This document shows positions 4,156 to 37,747 of a stretch of DNA of 43,419 bases, piece by piece (within the stretch, counting starts at the first letter, position 1; every line of letters starts with the position of its first letter). Both the position numbers and the translations under genes were made by a program. Origin of the DNA: a virus. Below the pieces are notes generated by a model. The model was not told the origin of the DNA. It searched no databases and was given only the letters and a program-made list of their open reading frames with translations. The DNA lies in IMG/VR virus record IMGVR_UViG_3300042923_000202, positions 1 through 43,419 of that record; one strand, 5' to 3'.

Positions 4156-4833
4156 CTACATGTATTCGCCCTTGAAGATCACGACGCCGCAGATCTGGCA
4201 GTCAGAATTCAGGGGTATGAACTGCTCAGGCCATGACGGGTTTATGGCTTTCAAATATTGGTCGGGGCCCTCGATTATCAACTGCTTGAATGTAGCTTCC
4301 GGGCTGTCAGACAGCTGAGCAACCACCAGCGAGCCGTTTTCCGCCTGGCGATCGGGATCAACGTAGATCAGGTCACCCTCTCTAAAGGATCGGCGGGCGT
4401 GCGGGTTGAACATGGATTCACCTCGAACCCTCAAAACAAATGTGCGCGGACCGTGAGGCACTGGGCACGCAACCCAGTCCACAGCGTCAGCGGCGGTAAA
4501 CGATGACATAACTTCCGTCCATTGGCCTGCCTGCACCCATGATATTACCGGTACAGCGCTCGGCTGGACATGCGCTTGTTCGATATTCGAGCGCATTGAC
4601 CCTGCCGCCAGTGCCGAGCTCAGAGGCAAGCCCAGTGCGTCGAGGATCTTGATTAGCAGTTCCTGACTTGCTCCTTGCTTGCCGCGCTCCAGCCTGGAGA
4701 GGTTACCGCTATCGGTTCCCACGAGGTCCGCGAGTTCCTCAAGCGTCAGCTTCTTCGCTTTTCTCGCGTCCCTTATAGCCTGTCCGATTTCCATTTTTAC
4801 CAGCCCTTTTAGTAGGGCGCTAATCCTCGCCAT
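4156..4833 (-). CDS. CI-type repressor: XRE HTH plus S24 self-cleaving domain
   Basis: A 225-aa lysogeny repressor. Residues about 15-75 are an XRE helix-turn-helix (IGQAIRDARKAKKLTLEELA...SGNLSRLERGKQ). The C-terminal half is the LexA/CI S24 peptidase fold: cleavage site Ala102-Gly103 (WVQAGQW), nucleophile Ser140 (RGESM) and general base Lys183 (TFKQL). All three are present, so RecA-stimulated autocleavage should work. The ATG at 4833 has AGGAGG 7 bases upstream and is preferred over the ATG at 4794. The ribosome site touches an operator half-site (4843-4850), which suggests autoregulation. Divergent from the Cro-like gene. Confidence 0.95.
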   Translation of the reverse strand: MARISALLKGLVKMEIGQAIRDARKAKKLTLEELADLVGTDSGNLSRLERGKQGASQELLIKILDALGLPLSSALAAGSMRSNIEQAHVQPSAVPVISWVQAGQWTEVMSSFTAADAVDWVACPVPHGPRTFVLRVRGESMFNPHARRSFREGDLIYVDPDRQAENGSLVVAQLSDSPEATFKQLIIEGPDQYLKAINPSWPEQFIPLNSDCQICGVVIFKGEYM

Positions 4834-4842
4834 GACGCGCCT

Positions 4843-4909
4843 CCTGCGCAAAGCGTATTGCGCAGATTACGGCTTGCTTTTTATCTGCGCACTGCGCAGA
4901 ATTGCAGCC
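4843..4909 (+). promoter_or_regulatory. PR promoter and right operators (OR)
   Basis: A perfect 17-bp palindromic operator, TCTGCGCACTGCGCAGA (8-bp arms, central C), lies at 4884-4900. It sits between a weak -35 (TTGCTT, 4874-4879) and -10 (CAGAAT, 4897-4902) with a 17-base spacer reading toward cro, as lambda OR1 covers PR. Additional half-sites occur at 4843-4850 (cctgcgca) and 4859-4866 (tgcgcaga), next to the cI ribosome site. The half-site matches that of OL. The cI promoter must also lie here, but I cannot place it with confidence. Confidence 0.7.
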
Positions 4910-26312: not shown

Positions 26313-29300
26313 TACCGCCCGCCTGACGATTGTTGTCGACAGCTCACAGGCCCGCAACGCGAATAAGGACCTTGGAGCGCTCGAGCGCGGCGCGTCTTCG
26401 CTTGCATCCGGCCTGAGAGGCTTAATCGCGCCCTTGATAGGCGTAGCGGGCGCAATGGCGGCACTGAATAAGGCTTCTGAGGTTCAGCGTCAGTTTGACG
26501 TGCTGAATGCAGGCCTGATCACTGCCACTGGTAGCGCCGACAAAGCAGCCGGCGCGTTCAAGGCGCTGCAATCGTTCGCGCAAAAGACCCCGTACGATCT
26601 CAATCAGGCCGTGAAGGGCTTCACCCAGCTGGTGAACCTTGGCCTCACGCCGTCTGAAAAGGCCCTGATGTCCTACGGCAACACCGCTTCGGCGATGGGC
26701 AAGGACCTCAACCAGATGATTGAGGCGGTCGCGGATGCGGCCACTGGCGAGTTCGAGCGCCTGAAAGAGTTCGGCATCAAGGCGAAAGCCAATGGTGACA
26801 GTCTCTCGCTCACGTTCCAAGGCATGACGAAGAAGATCGGGAACAATGCCGCTGAGATCGAGAAGTACCTGACCGACCTTGGGGAGAACCAGTTTGCCGG
26901 AGCCATGGAGCTTCGGATGAAGACCTTAGACGGCGCAGTTGCCAACCTCGGCGACACATGGGATACGACGTTCCGCCTGATCAACGAGGCGGGCCTTGGC
27001 GATGCGATGCAGGACGCGGTAAGGGAGGCTACTGACGCCCTGAGCGAGCTTAACGACCAGATCGCGTCTGGCGAACTGGAGACCAACCTCGCCGCAGTCG
27101 CCGGAAAGTTCGACGGTTTCGGCCGCGACATCGAATACACGCTGGGCGAAATCTCCAAACTTTTCGTCGACAGCACTGGCTATTGGGGGCGCACGCTCGA
27201 CGCCAACGTAGCCAACATGACTCAGACCTTTCGGGAGTTCCCGGAAAACGTCCGCGCTTTCATCCAGGTGATGACCGTTGAGGTCCTGGCAGGCTTCGAC
27301 AAGGTCAAGGCCTACGCCCGGGCTTTCAACGATGGTATCAACGCCATCTTCACCAACGACACGTTCGAGGGTGTTGGCGCCCGCCTTGAAGCAGAGCTGA
27401 ACGTCGCCAATACGGCCCGCGAAGGAACGCTGCAGTCAATATTCGATGAGCGCGAGGCGTCGCTGTCTTCGTTCGCTGCGCAGACGCAGGCCGCCAAGGA
27501 CCAGCGCAAAGCGTTCGACGAGAAGGCAGCGGCAGACGCTGCAAACACGTCTGATCGACTGGCTCAGTTCAAGGTGGTAGGCGAGGCTACCAAACAGCAA
27601 ACCGACGCCGAGAAGAAGGCTGCGAAAGAAGCCGAGTCACTGGCAGCGCGCCAAAAGAAGGCGCTTGATGATCTGGTAACTCAAGCAGACATCAACACCA
27701 ACTCCACCAACGCCATGGCGGACGCCTATCTCGGCGGAGCGACCAGTGTTCGTGAGCTCACGATCCAGCAGAAGGTTGAGGAAGAGCTGCTCAAGACCGG
27801 TGCCGGCGCTCGTTCTCAGGTTGTCGATGCGATCAACAAAGAAGCCGACGCGCGGGACCGACTGGACCTTTCTGAATCCAATGCGGCCCGTCGCGTAGAT
27901 ACGGCGAACACTCTCAGCCAGGCCGCCGCAACTCTCAAAGGGTCATCTGCTCTCGAAGAGTACAACGCCACCAAAGCTATCACCTTGGCTCTGAGCGGCA
28001 AGAAAATCGCAGCCGACAGCGCCGAATATAAGCAGCTGGTCGAAACCACCAAAGCTCAGCTGGCTGCCAACAAAGCGCTCCAGCAAGCCGGCAAGGTTGA
28101 ATCGATTGTCGACCGCTTGAGCCCTCAAACCAAGCTTTTGCGTGACTACACAGAGGAGCAGGAAGCTCTCAATGCGGCGATCGCATTGGGCGAGGGAGAT
28201 ACAGCGCTTTATCAGGCAACCCTGGCAAAGCTGGCAGTTGAGTACGAGCAGAACAAGAATGCAGCAACCGCGTGGGGGCAGTTCACTGAGGGGGCGGTAG
28301 ACCGCGTTGACGACGCCTTTGCTGATGCATGGAAAAACATCGACGAAGGGTTCGATGGGTTTGCGACGAGCCTGAAGGAAGGCTTCAAGCAACTGCTCGC
28401 CGAACTCGCGCACATGGCAATCACCAAGCCGATCATCATGCAGATCGGCGCAGCCATGGGTGTAGGGGGGTTGTCAGCATCAGGCCCGGGCGGAGTTCTG
28501 TCCACGCTTACAGGCGGATCGTCCGGATCGCCCCTGTTGAGCGGAATCAAAACCCTTGCAGACATCAGTACCAGCAGTTTCGGCCAAGCGCTGGGCAACG
28601 GCTGGGCCAGTGGGGAGGGTCTGTTTGGCGGCCTGCAAGGTGCCGCGAGCAACGGTTATAACTTTCTCAGCGGCATATTCGCGGGAGGTGGCGCAGGCGC
28701 AGCGGCGAGTACGGGCGCGGCTCAAGGCGCTGCGGCCTTCGGTTCGCAGTTTCTGGCCGACAGCGGCGCAGCGACTATCTCGTTCCCAGGTGCTGCACCT
28801 GTGGCAGACGCAGCAACCGGGGCGGCGGGCGCCGGCTGGGGCAGCGTAGGCGCTATCGGCTCCGGTCTGCTCGGTGCATACCAGGGCTACAAGCAAAACG
28901 GCCTCAAGGGTGCGGTGGCGACTGGCGGTCTCGCTTACGGCGGTGCCGTGGGCGGCGCGGCGCTGGGCGGGATTGCGGCCGGTGCAATCTCCGGTACTGC
29001 GCTCGGCGCAACCATAGGCTCTGTGGTCCCTGTGATTGGCACCGTTATCGGCGCTGCACTGGGGACGGCGCTCGGCGGAAAGTTGTTCAGTGGCGAGTGG
29101 ATCACCAAGGACATGGGCTTGCAGTTGGGCGTGACCGACGGCGAGCTGACCGCGAACAACTACGAATATCAGAAGAAAAAAGGCGGTCTGTTCTCGTCGA
29201 ACAAGAAACGCACAAAGCTGAGCCCGCTGGAAGATGAGCAGCAAACCGCGATGGAGCAAGCGCTGTCCGGCACTGCTTTCACCGCTGTCGATGCGTTTTC

Positions 29301-34851: not shown

Positions 34852-35319
34852 ATGAAGATCCCTGTCGAAACCATCAGACAGGGCCTTGCCCTGTTGCCCG
34901 CGAAAATGAACGGCCGCCGGGCCATGACCATGCTTGTCGCTATCGGCCTGCAGGAGTCCGGATTCCTCACGCGCCGCCAGTACGGCAATGGCCCTGCGCG
35001 CGGGTATTGGCAATTTGAATCCGGCGGCGGGGTGAAAGGGGTGATGACCCATCCCAACACCACCTCATACGCGGCGGCCATATGCGCAGTCCGAGGCGTC
35101 CCGTTCGAGCAGTCGAAGGTATGGGCTGCCCTTGAAACGGACGACGTGCTTGCCGTGGTATTTGCCCGCCTGCTGCTATGGAGTGATCCGAAGCCGTTAC
35201 CTGCGCTCACCGAGCCGGACGCAGCGTGGAATCTGTACCTGCGCACCTGGCGCCCAGGCAAGCCGCATCCGGATAAATGGCCGGACTGCCACGCGCATGC
35301 GCTTGAGGCGCTGGCGTGA
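34852..35319 (+). CDS. Lysozyme-like endolysin (putative)
   Basis: A 155-aa protein with an SLT/lysozyme-like core: VAIGLQESGF (catalytic Glu candidate, about residue 37) and YGNGPARGYWQFE. The acidic residue in a helix followed by a G-x-W/Q-F strand is the pattern of goose-type and transglycosylase-like muramidases. Directly upstream of Rz, which supports endolysin. No signal sequence, so it would need a holin. A GTG at 34843 is an alternative start but leaves too little space after the ribosome site. Confidence 0.7.
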   Translation: MKIPVETIRQGLALLPAKMNGRRAMTMLVAIGLQESGFLTRRQYGNGPARGYWQFESGGGVKGVMTHPNTTSYAAAICAVRGVPFEQSKVWAALETDDVLAVVFARLLLWSDPKPLPALTEPDAAWNLYLRTWRPGKPHPDKWPDCHAHALEALA

Positions 35320-35840
35320 CGGCGCTCCTGAAGGCGGTGCCGCTGCGGGTCTGGCTGTTGATCGTGCTGATCGCGGTGCTGGGCGGCGCGCTGATCTACC
35401 AGACGTTAGCGCTGGCCGACGCGCGTCAGGAGCACGCCGCGTACGTGGCTGGCGTAGAGCGGGCCGCGCGGGACGCATCACAAGCCGTCCGCGAAGAAGA
35501 ACAGCGCCGCCAACGCGAAATCAACCAGGTAAGAAGCGATGCTCAAAAACAGATCAAGGCTGCGGCGGATGATGCTGCTGTGGCCGCTACTGCTGCTGAC
35601 AGCCTGCAGCAGCAAGTCACCAAGCTACTTGCCGGCCGATCCGCCTGCGATTCCCGAGTTGCCCAAGGAAGCCAGACAGTCGCCGACCTTACCGCTGTGC
35701 TCGCCGACCTGCGCCGCCGGGCTGACGAGAGAGCGGGAGAGCTGGCGCGCATTGCTGATGAAAGCCGAATAGCGGGACTCACATGTGAGAAGGCGTATGA
35801 GTCATTAAGCGCAACTCGTCCGGGCACGCTTGGCAAGTAA
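35316..35840 (+). CDS. Rz: Inner-membrane spanin (Rz-like)
   Basis: A 174-aa protein starting with GTG: N-terminal single transmembrane helix (VWLLIVLIAVLGGALIYQTLAL, about 12-33), then a long periplasmic coiled coil (about 45-125) and Cys near the C-terminus. This is the i-spanin plan. It overlaps the endolysin stop by 4 bp and contains the Rz1 gene in another frame. Spanins fuse inner and outer membranes in the last step of lysis. Confidence 0.9.
   Translation: MTALLKAVPLRVWLLIVLIAVLGGALIYQTLALADARQEHAAYVAGVERAARDASQAVREEEQRRQREINQVRSDAQKQIKAAADDAAVAATAADSLQQQVTKLLAGRSACDSRVAQGSQTVADLTAVLADLRRRADERAGELARIADESRIAGLTCEKAYESLSATRPGTLGK
35539..35772 (+). CDS. Rz1: Outer-membrane spanin lipoprotein (Rz1-like), embedded in Rz
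   Basis: A 77-aa protein wholly inside Rz in a different frame. After basic MLKNRSRLRRM comes MLLWPLLLLTAC, with lipobox L-T-A-C (Cys23), followed by a Pro-rich stretch (SPSYLPADPPAIPELPKEA) typical of Rz1. The Pro region interacts with the i-spanin coiled coil. AGGTAAGAAG precedes the ATG. Embedded Rz1 genes are well known. Confidence 0.88.
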   Translation: MLKNRSRLRRMMLLWPLLLLTACSSKSPSYLPADPPAIPELPKEARQSPTLPLCSPTCAAGLTRERESWRALLMKAE

Positions 35841-35860
35841 CCGGTACCTGCCGCAACATA

Positions 35861-35876
35861 CTGTATCCCCATACAG
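35861..35876 (+). promoter_or_regulatory. LexA (SOS) box
   Basis: CTGTATCCCCATACAG is CTG-N10-CAG with inverted TA-rich arms, preceded by TA (TACTG), as in the gammaproteobacterial LexA consensus. It lies 13 bases before the ATG of the 97-aa gene at 35890, so LexA binding would block expression of it. This is separate from the phage CI operators. Confidence 0.75.
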
Positions 35877-35889
35877 CGGTTGAAGTGCC

Positions 35890-36183
35890 ATGCAAGGATA
35901 TCCAGAGGAATGGATTCGCGAATTCAAAGACGAACAGGCCCTGATCACCGATCCGGCCGGCCGCTGTATGGCGCTGTCTAATATGGCCTTCGCGCTGCGC
36001 CGCAGAAACGAGATCGACGATGACCAACTGTCGGACATGCTTGAGCTCGCGGATGCAGGCAAGGAGTGGGCATTGAGCGAGATTGAAGACGGGCACTGGA
36101 TCGGGCTGTTCGACGATCATCCCGACGTGTCCAGAACGGGCCTGCAGTACTTCGACGGCAAGAAGATGGTGATAGGGGAGTGA
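35890..36183 (+). CDS. SOS-box-controlled acidic protein of unknown function
   Basis: A 97-aa acidic protein (YPEEWIREFKDEQALITDPAGRC; DDDQLSDMLELADAGKEWALSEIEDGHW). Helical; the N-terminal YPEEWIREF and ALSNMAFALRRRN stretches are recalled from Pseudomonas proteins but no function is known to me. A LexA box sits immediately upstream and strong hairpins follow its stop, right before attP. It could be an SOS-linked prophage function such as an induction helper, but DinI or antirepressor similarity is not evident. Confidence 0.75.
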   Translation: MQGYPEEWIREFKDEQALITDPAGRCMALSNMAFALRRRNEIDDDQLSDMLELADAGKEWALSEIEDGHWIGLFDDHPDVSRTGLQYFDGKKMVIGE

Positions 36184-36248
36184 CCAATCCGGGAAGGTAT
36201 GGGCCCCGGATTGGTCGGCCGGGAGAGAGCGAATCGGGTTACCCGGCC
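36182..36248 (+). other. Two tandem strong hairpins
   Basis: First hairpin: perfect 12-bp arms at 36182-36193 and 36205-36216. Second: ggccggg (36217-36223) with cccggcc (36242-36248). Neither is followed by a T-run. A short palindrome (gccgcgcgcggc) follows near 36270. They end the SOS-gene transcript or mark a structured RNA between it and attP. No gene is visible in 36184-36568. Confidence 0.65.
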
Positions 36249-36452
36249 CTGAAAGTAATAGCTGCGGCCGCGCGCGGCGCAAGTGATAAAGACAGGTGGT
36301 GGGTGGTGTTCGTCGGCAGGACGCCGGAGTAGGCAAATGCCTTGGGGAGATTTTCGGGGAATTGTTCTGAGCCGTTCAGCACAGTGCGGCATCGTTTGCA
36401 GCGAGCGACCGCACAAATGCCTGTGTTTAAAGGTGTTTCATGTAGCCTGCAC

Positions 36453-36499
36453 GCATGGGGTGCTAGGGGTCGAGTGTTCGAATCACTCCGTCCCGACCA
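36453..36499 (+). other. attP core: 3' half of a tRNA-Pro(GGG) gene
   Basis: Forty-seven bases match the 3' part of a tRNA: anticodon loop ATGGGGT (GGG), T-arm GAGTG-TTCGAAT-CACTC, acceptor strand and CCA end (36497-36499). The 5' half (which would include the D-arm) is absent, so it is not a complete tRNA. It lies 70 bases from the integrase gene, the standard attP layout. Integration would restore the host tRNA 3' end. Confidence 0.85.
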
Positions 36500-36515
36500 T
36501 ATATTTCAATGACTT

Positions 36516-36543
36516 AGCCCAGCCTTTTCAGGTTGGGCTTTTT
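36516..36543 (+). terminator. Intrinsic terminator next to attP
   Basis: A 9-bp stem with one G-U pair (agcccagcc 36516-36524; ggttgggct 36531-36539) and a run of T (36539-36543). It would stop rightward late transcripts before the integrase, or may be carried from a host tRNA terminator. Confidence 0.8.
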
Positions 36544-36568
36544 CATGTGTGGGGACTTTTTCGGGACA

Positions 36569-37747
36569 TCATCCGATTCTCCTCTTCAATATCGTCAATA
36601 CCGGCCCTCGCGAGTCAGTTGTTGATACCATATTCGCAGCTTCAATCAGCTTTCCAAGCTCAGCGCCTGAGTAGTGACTGGTGATGCTGCCGTTCTTGTG
36701 CCCAAGCAGAGCTTTACGATCTTCCTCAGTTACGCCAGCTGCTCGCAGCCTGCGACCGAATGTGTGCTTCAGATCGTGAACCCTTATCGAGGCGTACCCA
36801 GGTTGAGCGGGGCGAAGGTTTTTCTCCTGCCAGAGTTTCGCCGCTCTCAACCGGGCTTTCTTCCAGGCTGAGTCGTTCATGCGATGCATGACTGATCCAT
36901 TCCATGGGAAGACCCATTCCTTGCTCAGGCCTCGCTGCTGGCTGATCACCGACCTGGCAACAGAATTGAGCACCACTAGACGCTCGTCTCCATTCTTCAC
37001 CCCGGATCGCTCGGTCCGCCCTCCAAAATCGGAAGGGATCAGAAATACACTGGTCCCAAGCTCCGGAACCTGAATCTCCCAATCCCACCGCAACTTGCAA
37101 ACTTCCTGCTCTCGAGTGCCCGTGTTCACCTTGAACAAAGCCATCTTCTGAAGATGTGCGGGCAACTCGCTGAAAAGAATCGACTGTTCTTCCCATGTCA
37201 TCGGGTACGGCAGTCGAACCTTCTTCTTCAAATCAAGCTTCGTCAGCATCGGCACAGAATCAAGCCACGGCCTCCGCTCTTCATCGCGCCATTTCCTGGC
37301 GCACAGCGACAGAATTCGTGTCACACGCTCGATTGACATGTTCACCGTGCGCGGCGCGACCGGCTTCAGTTGCTTCCCGCACGGCAGGACCATTCCGCTC
37401 AAACGATCCGCGACAAATTCCTCAAGCGCCTGGTCGTCAATGTGGGTCAGCGGCAGGTCCTTGAGGTAGGGATGGAGGTGGGTCAGGTGATGCGCTGAAA
37501 GCTTTATCGAAGGCTGATCCTTGTACTCAATCAGAAAGCGCGTTGCCGCCTCTTCCCAAGTTCGAGTTCGGCGGACGCCATACACACGTTCCTGACGCAA
37601 CCTTTCCAGCATGTGTATCAGATACTGTTCGGCTTCTTCCCTGTCACTAGTGCCAGTGCTCTCTCGAATTCGCTCCCCTCTGTAGACCTTATCGATTTGC
37701 CAGACACCGCCCTTCTGGTAGAGACCGGTGATTGTTTTTCGCGCCAT
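36569..37747 (-). CDS. int: Tyrosine-type integrase
   Basis: A 392-aa phage integrase. N-terminal arm-binding region (MARKTITGLYQKGGVWQIDK), core-binding domain about 60-160, catalytic domain with Arg212 (NTGTREQEVCKLRW), His324-x-x-Lys327 (VHDLKHTF), His350 (LLGH) and nucleophile Tyr359 (ITSHYS). In most tyrosine recombinases the second box is H-x-x-R; here it is Lys. Adjacent attP and overlapping excisionase fit a tRNA-Pro site-specific system. It is last in the leftward operon. Confidence 0.95.
   Translation of the reverse strand: MARKTITGLYQKGGVWQIDKVYRGERIRESTGTSDREEAEQYLIHMLERLRQERVYGVRRTRTWEEAATRFLIEYKDQPSIKLSAHHLTHLHPYLKDLPLTHIDDQALEEFVADRLSGMVLPCGKQLKPVAPRTVNMSIERVTRILSLCARKWRDEERRPWLDSVPMLTKLDLKKKVRLPYPMTWEEQSILFSELPAHLQKMALFKVNTGTREQEVCKLRWDWEIQVPELGTSVFLIPSDFGGRTERSGVKNGDERLVVLNSVARSVISQQRGLSKEWVFPWNGSVMHRMNDSAWKKARLRAAKLWQEKNLRPAQPGYASIRVHDLKHTFGRRLRAAGVTEEDRKALLGHKNGSITSHYSGAELGKLIEAANMVSTTDSRGPVLTILKRRIG

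Follow-up and report, generated by a model that had tools for sequence, protein, structure and literature searches.

What does a small gene between the lysis module and the attachment site of a phage contribute when it stands behind a putative LexA box, and is that box likely to place it under host LexA control? We addressed this question in a stretch of viral DNA, here called the window, that comprises 43,419 nt (positions 1 to 43,419 of IMG/VR record IMGVR_UViG_3300042923_000202). The reading we favour, with a probability of about 0.5 judged from computational evidence, is that the window carries a LexA-controlled SOS cassette at its lysis/attP junction and that the cassette encodes a small helical protein with an accessory part in the damage-tolerance branch of the SOS response.

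A predicted LexA box at the lysis/attP junction

We identified a single match to the tight palindrome CTGTATN4ATACAG (at most one mismatch) in the whole window, at 35861-35876, and 0 of 100 shuffles contained any. This core (CTGTATCCCCATACAG) lies within a predicted LexA box, TACTGTATCCCCATACAGCG (35859..35878, no strand assigned). The window gene thus has the LexA-regulon palindrome at its promoter/start: the gap to the ATG at 35890 is 13 nt, and the open reading frame encodes 97 aa. A sequence-only reading had placed a CTG-N10-CAG motif and the gene at exactly these positions. It had also described the flanks as symmetric, which is true of the inner half-sites CTGTAT/ATACAG, where symmetry is perfect, but not of the outer flanks (TA / CG). 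The bare CTG-N10-CAG pattern is not informative alone, with 24 occurrences in the window versus 18.4 expected. In host genomes, CTGTATN4ATACAG with one mismatch allowed has about 9-15 copies per genome, and copies stand upstream of SRAP (HMCES/YedK) and UmuD-like genes. A second palindrome in the window, CTGT-N8-ACAG at 28498-28513, falls within a tail tape-measure-like gene and is probably due to chance.

The box follows directly on an Rz-like spanin gene that ends the lysis module (35316..35840, plus strand; phrog_312, E 1e-38). The gene behind the box (35890..36183, plus strand) is separated by about 270 nt from a probable attP core with a tRNA 3'-end-like sequence (about 36455..36500, plus strand). 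The same stretch is found at the prophage end in two related loci (L013 and L023), and ARAGORN detected no whole tRNA in the attP-core region. The core is followed by a stem-loop resembling an intrinsic terminator (36516..36545, plus strand; two found versus 0.8 expected by chance) and a tyrosine integrase gene (36569..37747, minus strand; phrog_1, E 6e-39). Rfam searches of the locus returned nothing real, and the neighbours of the window gene include no umuDC, SRAP or phrog_5560 gene. A 50-aa open reading frame (36180-36332) overlaps the 3' end of the window gene.

The CI-like repressor gene is far off (4156..4851, minus strand) and encodes HTH (HTH_3, E 1e-12) and S24 peptidase (Peptidase_S24, E 4e-25) domains. 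The box is indeed apart from the CI switch, as the sequence-only reading had it, and its proposal that the phage reads SOS twice is upheld as a potential: a predicted LexA box would provide a second SOS input besides a CI protein with a Peptidase_S24 domain.

The encoded protein is small and acidic. It matches phrog_6137 (E 6.1e-22, residues 1-74 of 97 in a PHROG profile search), a family that PHROG labels as of unknown function, and the only other PHROG match is phrog_19595. The earlier impression that the protein resembles none known is thereby corrected, since it is a member of a family common in Pseudomonas. AlphaFold predicts residues 6-71 as a confident helical bundle, with a pLDDT of about 97 over most of this core, and the C-terminal tail with low confidence. 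Searches of Pfam, NCBIfam and PADLOC assigned the protein to no family. Fold searches of the model against the PDB and viral structures gave nothing significant (no PDB match to the helical core was better than E 0.9), and a PDB sequence search gave nothing credible.

Conservation of the box in the phrog_6137 family

A search of 399 Pseudomonas genomes returned phrog_6137 in 102 of them, and a search of 321 genomes sampled class-wide returned it in none; it is a Pseudomonas-only family that is common in that genus. Family loci were sampled with one genome per species. Allowing up to 2 mismatches in 12 positions, we identified a LexA-type box in the 400 nt that precede the profile match in 65 of 90 loci, compared to 1 of 90 for an equally long downstream interval. 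Shuffled half-sites gave a mean of 0.7 and a maximum of 5 among the 90 loci. Predicted LexA control is thus conserved across the family, and the homologues, like the window gene, have the upstream box of a LexA regulon. When the interval was widened to 1850 nt, which spans a preceding umuDC, a box was present in 70 of 89 loci (the same set minus one duplicate); about 20% of family loci lack a box under these criteria. The distances from the box cluster sharply, at 36-90 nt where phrog_6137 is the first gene and mostly at 318-361 nt where it follows phrog_5560. Taken with the tight box in the window, this conservation supports the earlier proposal of direct LexA control, which we regard as predicted.

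Pseudomonas phage Medea1 encodes a 39% identical relative, Medea1_0084, at the same place in its genome, preceded by an even better LexA-type box and a second gene, phrog_5560. The window protein resembles the family in sequence over residues 1-74 and differs by a longer, diverged C-terminal tail; the window also differs in having no phrog_5560 partner. The layout of the window (Rz, box, phrog_6137, integrase) is repeated in another locus, L134. We also observed longer proteins (open frames of about 240-370 aa; loci of the L030 and L179-L187 type) with a phrog_6137-like N-terminal domain. Their genes also follow a LexA box, and some adjoin SRAP.

Partner genes and the end of the cassette

Phrog_6137 adjoins phrog_5560, a second family of unknown function, in 57 of 89 loci. 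In 22 of 89 loci a SRAP, UmuC or UmuD homologue is encoded no more than 2.6 kb away, with which a separate SRAP search agrees, and Rz or integrase homologues are nearby in 23 of 89. Only a few query proteins served in the neighbour searches, so these partner counts are lower bounds. For phrog_5560 itself, an upstream box is present at 28 of 30 loci, usually 49-50 nt ahead of the profile match. Its model is mostly beta and has no significant match in a PDB fold search. With neither the window protein nor phrog_5560 yielding a significant fold match, no biochemical function follows from structure.

Genes for SRAP proteins are SOS-linked and carried by temperate phages (PMC3765255). In many relatives SRAP genes adjoin the same cassette or diverge from it, often across the same box, and in the stutzeri phages PG1 and vB_PstS-pAN SRAP lies directly 5' of phrog_5560; the window differs in having none beside its gene. 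A LexA site has likewise been described for Pseudomonas rulAB (PMC4542609). The umuDC/rulAB operons share the upstream LexA box, and in one clade (L127, L128) phrog_6137 is their third gene, in the order divergent SRAP, box, umuD, umuC, phrog_6137, whereas the window cassette is without umuDC. The phrog_6137 ATG overlaps the umuC stop in L127, and L135 and L172 have the same gene set. In L059 the order is box, phrog_6137, a UmuD-like S24 protein, phrog_5560. L127 lies between a tail-fibre-assembly gene and a stretch of ordinary metabolic and MerR genes, suggesting that even the umuDC form may sit at a prophage or tailocin edge.

We made two side observations on related boxes. In the filamentous phage PfAC02b (L123), a Pf phage that also carries Gabija genes, a LexA-like palindrome, CTGTTTATTTAAACAG (4859-4874), precedes a phrog_5560-like open reading frame that appears to begin upstream of its annotated start. 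In L004, L015-L017, L019 and L020, a divergent small gene on the minus strand stands where SRAP would otherwise lie, on the far side of the LexA box, and these prophages have no phrog_5560 or phrog_6137 at that spot. The divergent gene product is coiled-coil-looking in L004 and L019 (MNIDYAEDW.. and MNIDEDT..), and neither of the two tested has a PHROG match.

In many Pseudomonas prophages the LexA cassette ends with a conserved 20-nt element, TTCGTCGGCAGGACGCCGGA (core GTCGGCAGRACGCCGG; 36309..36328 of the window, plus strand). We identified exact copies in 10 IMG/VR contigs and 8 Pseudomonas genomes (the window, L004-L007, L009, L010, L012, L013, L015-L017, L019, L020, L064, L072, L076 and L078), and L014 has the element with one mismatch. 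It begins exactly 47 nt after the LexA-box start in 8 of the 10 IMG/VR contigs, a fixed spacing that holds where no open reading frame intervenes. Among relatives the element occurs in different frames or behind a stop codon, which indicates conservation as nucleic acid and speaks against a tiny SOS peptide (FVGRTPE); a codon-degenerate search for such a peptide gained one contig only. A structured RNA likewise found no support (fold z -0.16, non-significant). The plainest guess is that the element is a module-boundary sequence.

Candidate roles of the phrog_6137 protein

The box, the gene, its family membership, the conservation of the box and the operon partners are observed features of these loci, on which we base the following model. 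The window would have a LexA-controlled SOS cassette with a single gene, of a kind that Pseudomonas prophages maintain where the lysis genes meet attP/int. In a lysogen, LexA from the host would occupy the box and repress the gene. Upon DNA damage, RecA-driven LexA cleavage would turn it on, in parallel to cleavage of CI. The product would then act as an accessory or modulator of damage tolerance, by way of RecA filaments, UmuD'C (Pol V) or lesion repair. The location of relatives in umuDC operons and beside SRAP points indirectly to DNA-damage tolerance; the link to these genes is direct in the relatives and by inference in the window.

A neighbouring explanation is that the protein is a functional analogue of DinI, GIL01 gp7 or DdrR that tunes the pace of SOS and prophage induction by binding to RecA filaments or to an S24 autoprotease (LexA, CI or UmuD). 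Small SOS-modulating proteins do exist: DinI homologues are encoded in Gifsy LexA operons, GIL01 gp7 is reported to bind LexA (PMC4551915), and DdrR acts in corepression together with UmuDAb (PMC7273328). The phrog_6137 protein is likewise small and acidic and is encoded in LexA operons, of which some include UmuD-type S24 proteins. The support is by analogy, however, and the window protein matched neither DinI nor any solved structure in sequence or fold, nor the DinI-like Pfam family. Modulation of RecA or an S24 autoprotease overlaps our preferred accessory role and is by this analogy a real possibility, which we hold tentatively.

The antirepressor explanation, which the sequence-only reading had raised by comparison with LexA-controlled induction genes, is that the protein binds a phage repressor, its own or that of a co-resident prophage, and triggers or coordinates induction as Tum, AntC and GfoA do. 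Gifsy prophages have a LexA-controlled right-end operon, dinI-antirepressor-irsA, whose antirepressors serve repressors that escape cleavage, and some known antirepressors target the repressors of other prophages (PMC3121763). Predicted LexA control, small size and right-end position match this operon, and both systems have small LexA-controlled genes outside the immunity region. The protein family differs, however, and so does the repressor. Gifsy repressors are uncleaved, whereas the repressors of the window phage (Peptidase_S24, E 4e-25) and of Medea1 (by annotation) have an S24 peptidase domain and are predicted to be cleaved, so that an antirepressor would not be needed for self-induction. 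Of the features of Tum, AntC and GfoA, then, LexA control is present at the level of sequence, and the uncleaved repressor that defines the Gifsy case is absent. No known antirepressor profile occurs among the PHROG, Pfam and NCBIfam matches of the protein. Together with the relatives in umuDC operons and beside SRAP, this makes antirepressor action unlikely, and we favour a role in damage tolerance over it.

One box common to several SOS genes could also merely reflect a hotspot for SOS-regulated cargo, and the different small genes on one box (the divergent gene of L004 and L019, SRAP, phrog_5560) have that look; that phrog_6137 is a moron induced by SOS but serving an unrelated purpose (superinfection exclusion, lysis timing or counter-defence), merely using a LexA promoter, is nonetheless quite improbable given its repeated association with umuDC and SRAP and a PADLOC search without a match.

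Most of the known prophage operons under LexA control come from enterobacteria. In Pseudomonas, phrog_6137 and phrog_5560 each occur in about a quarter of the sampled species, and our analyses predict that these two uncharacterised families of small proteins are wired to SOS, often in linkage with Pol V and SRAP genes. A more far-reaching proposal, which we regard as speculative, is that phrog_6137, with phrog_5560, defines a Pseudomonas-specific class of mobile SOS modulators with Pol V, RecA or S24 autoproteases as their targets; by means of these, prophages may influence how the host tolerates damage and how fast it mutates while the lytic decision is not yet final. The predicted SOS wiring gives both families a defined condition in which to search for a phenotype, and it makes directly testable how prophages affect the mutagenesis and damage survival of their Pseudomonas hosts.
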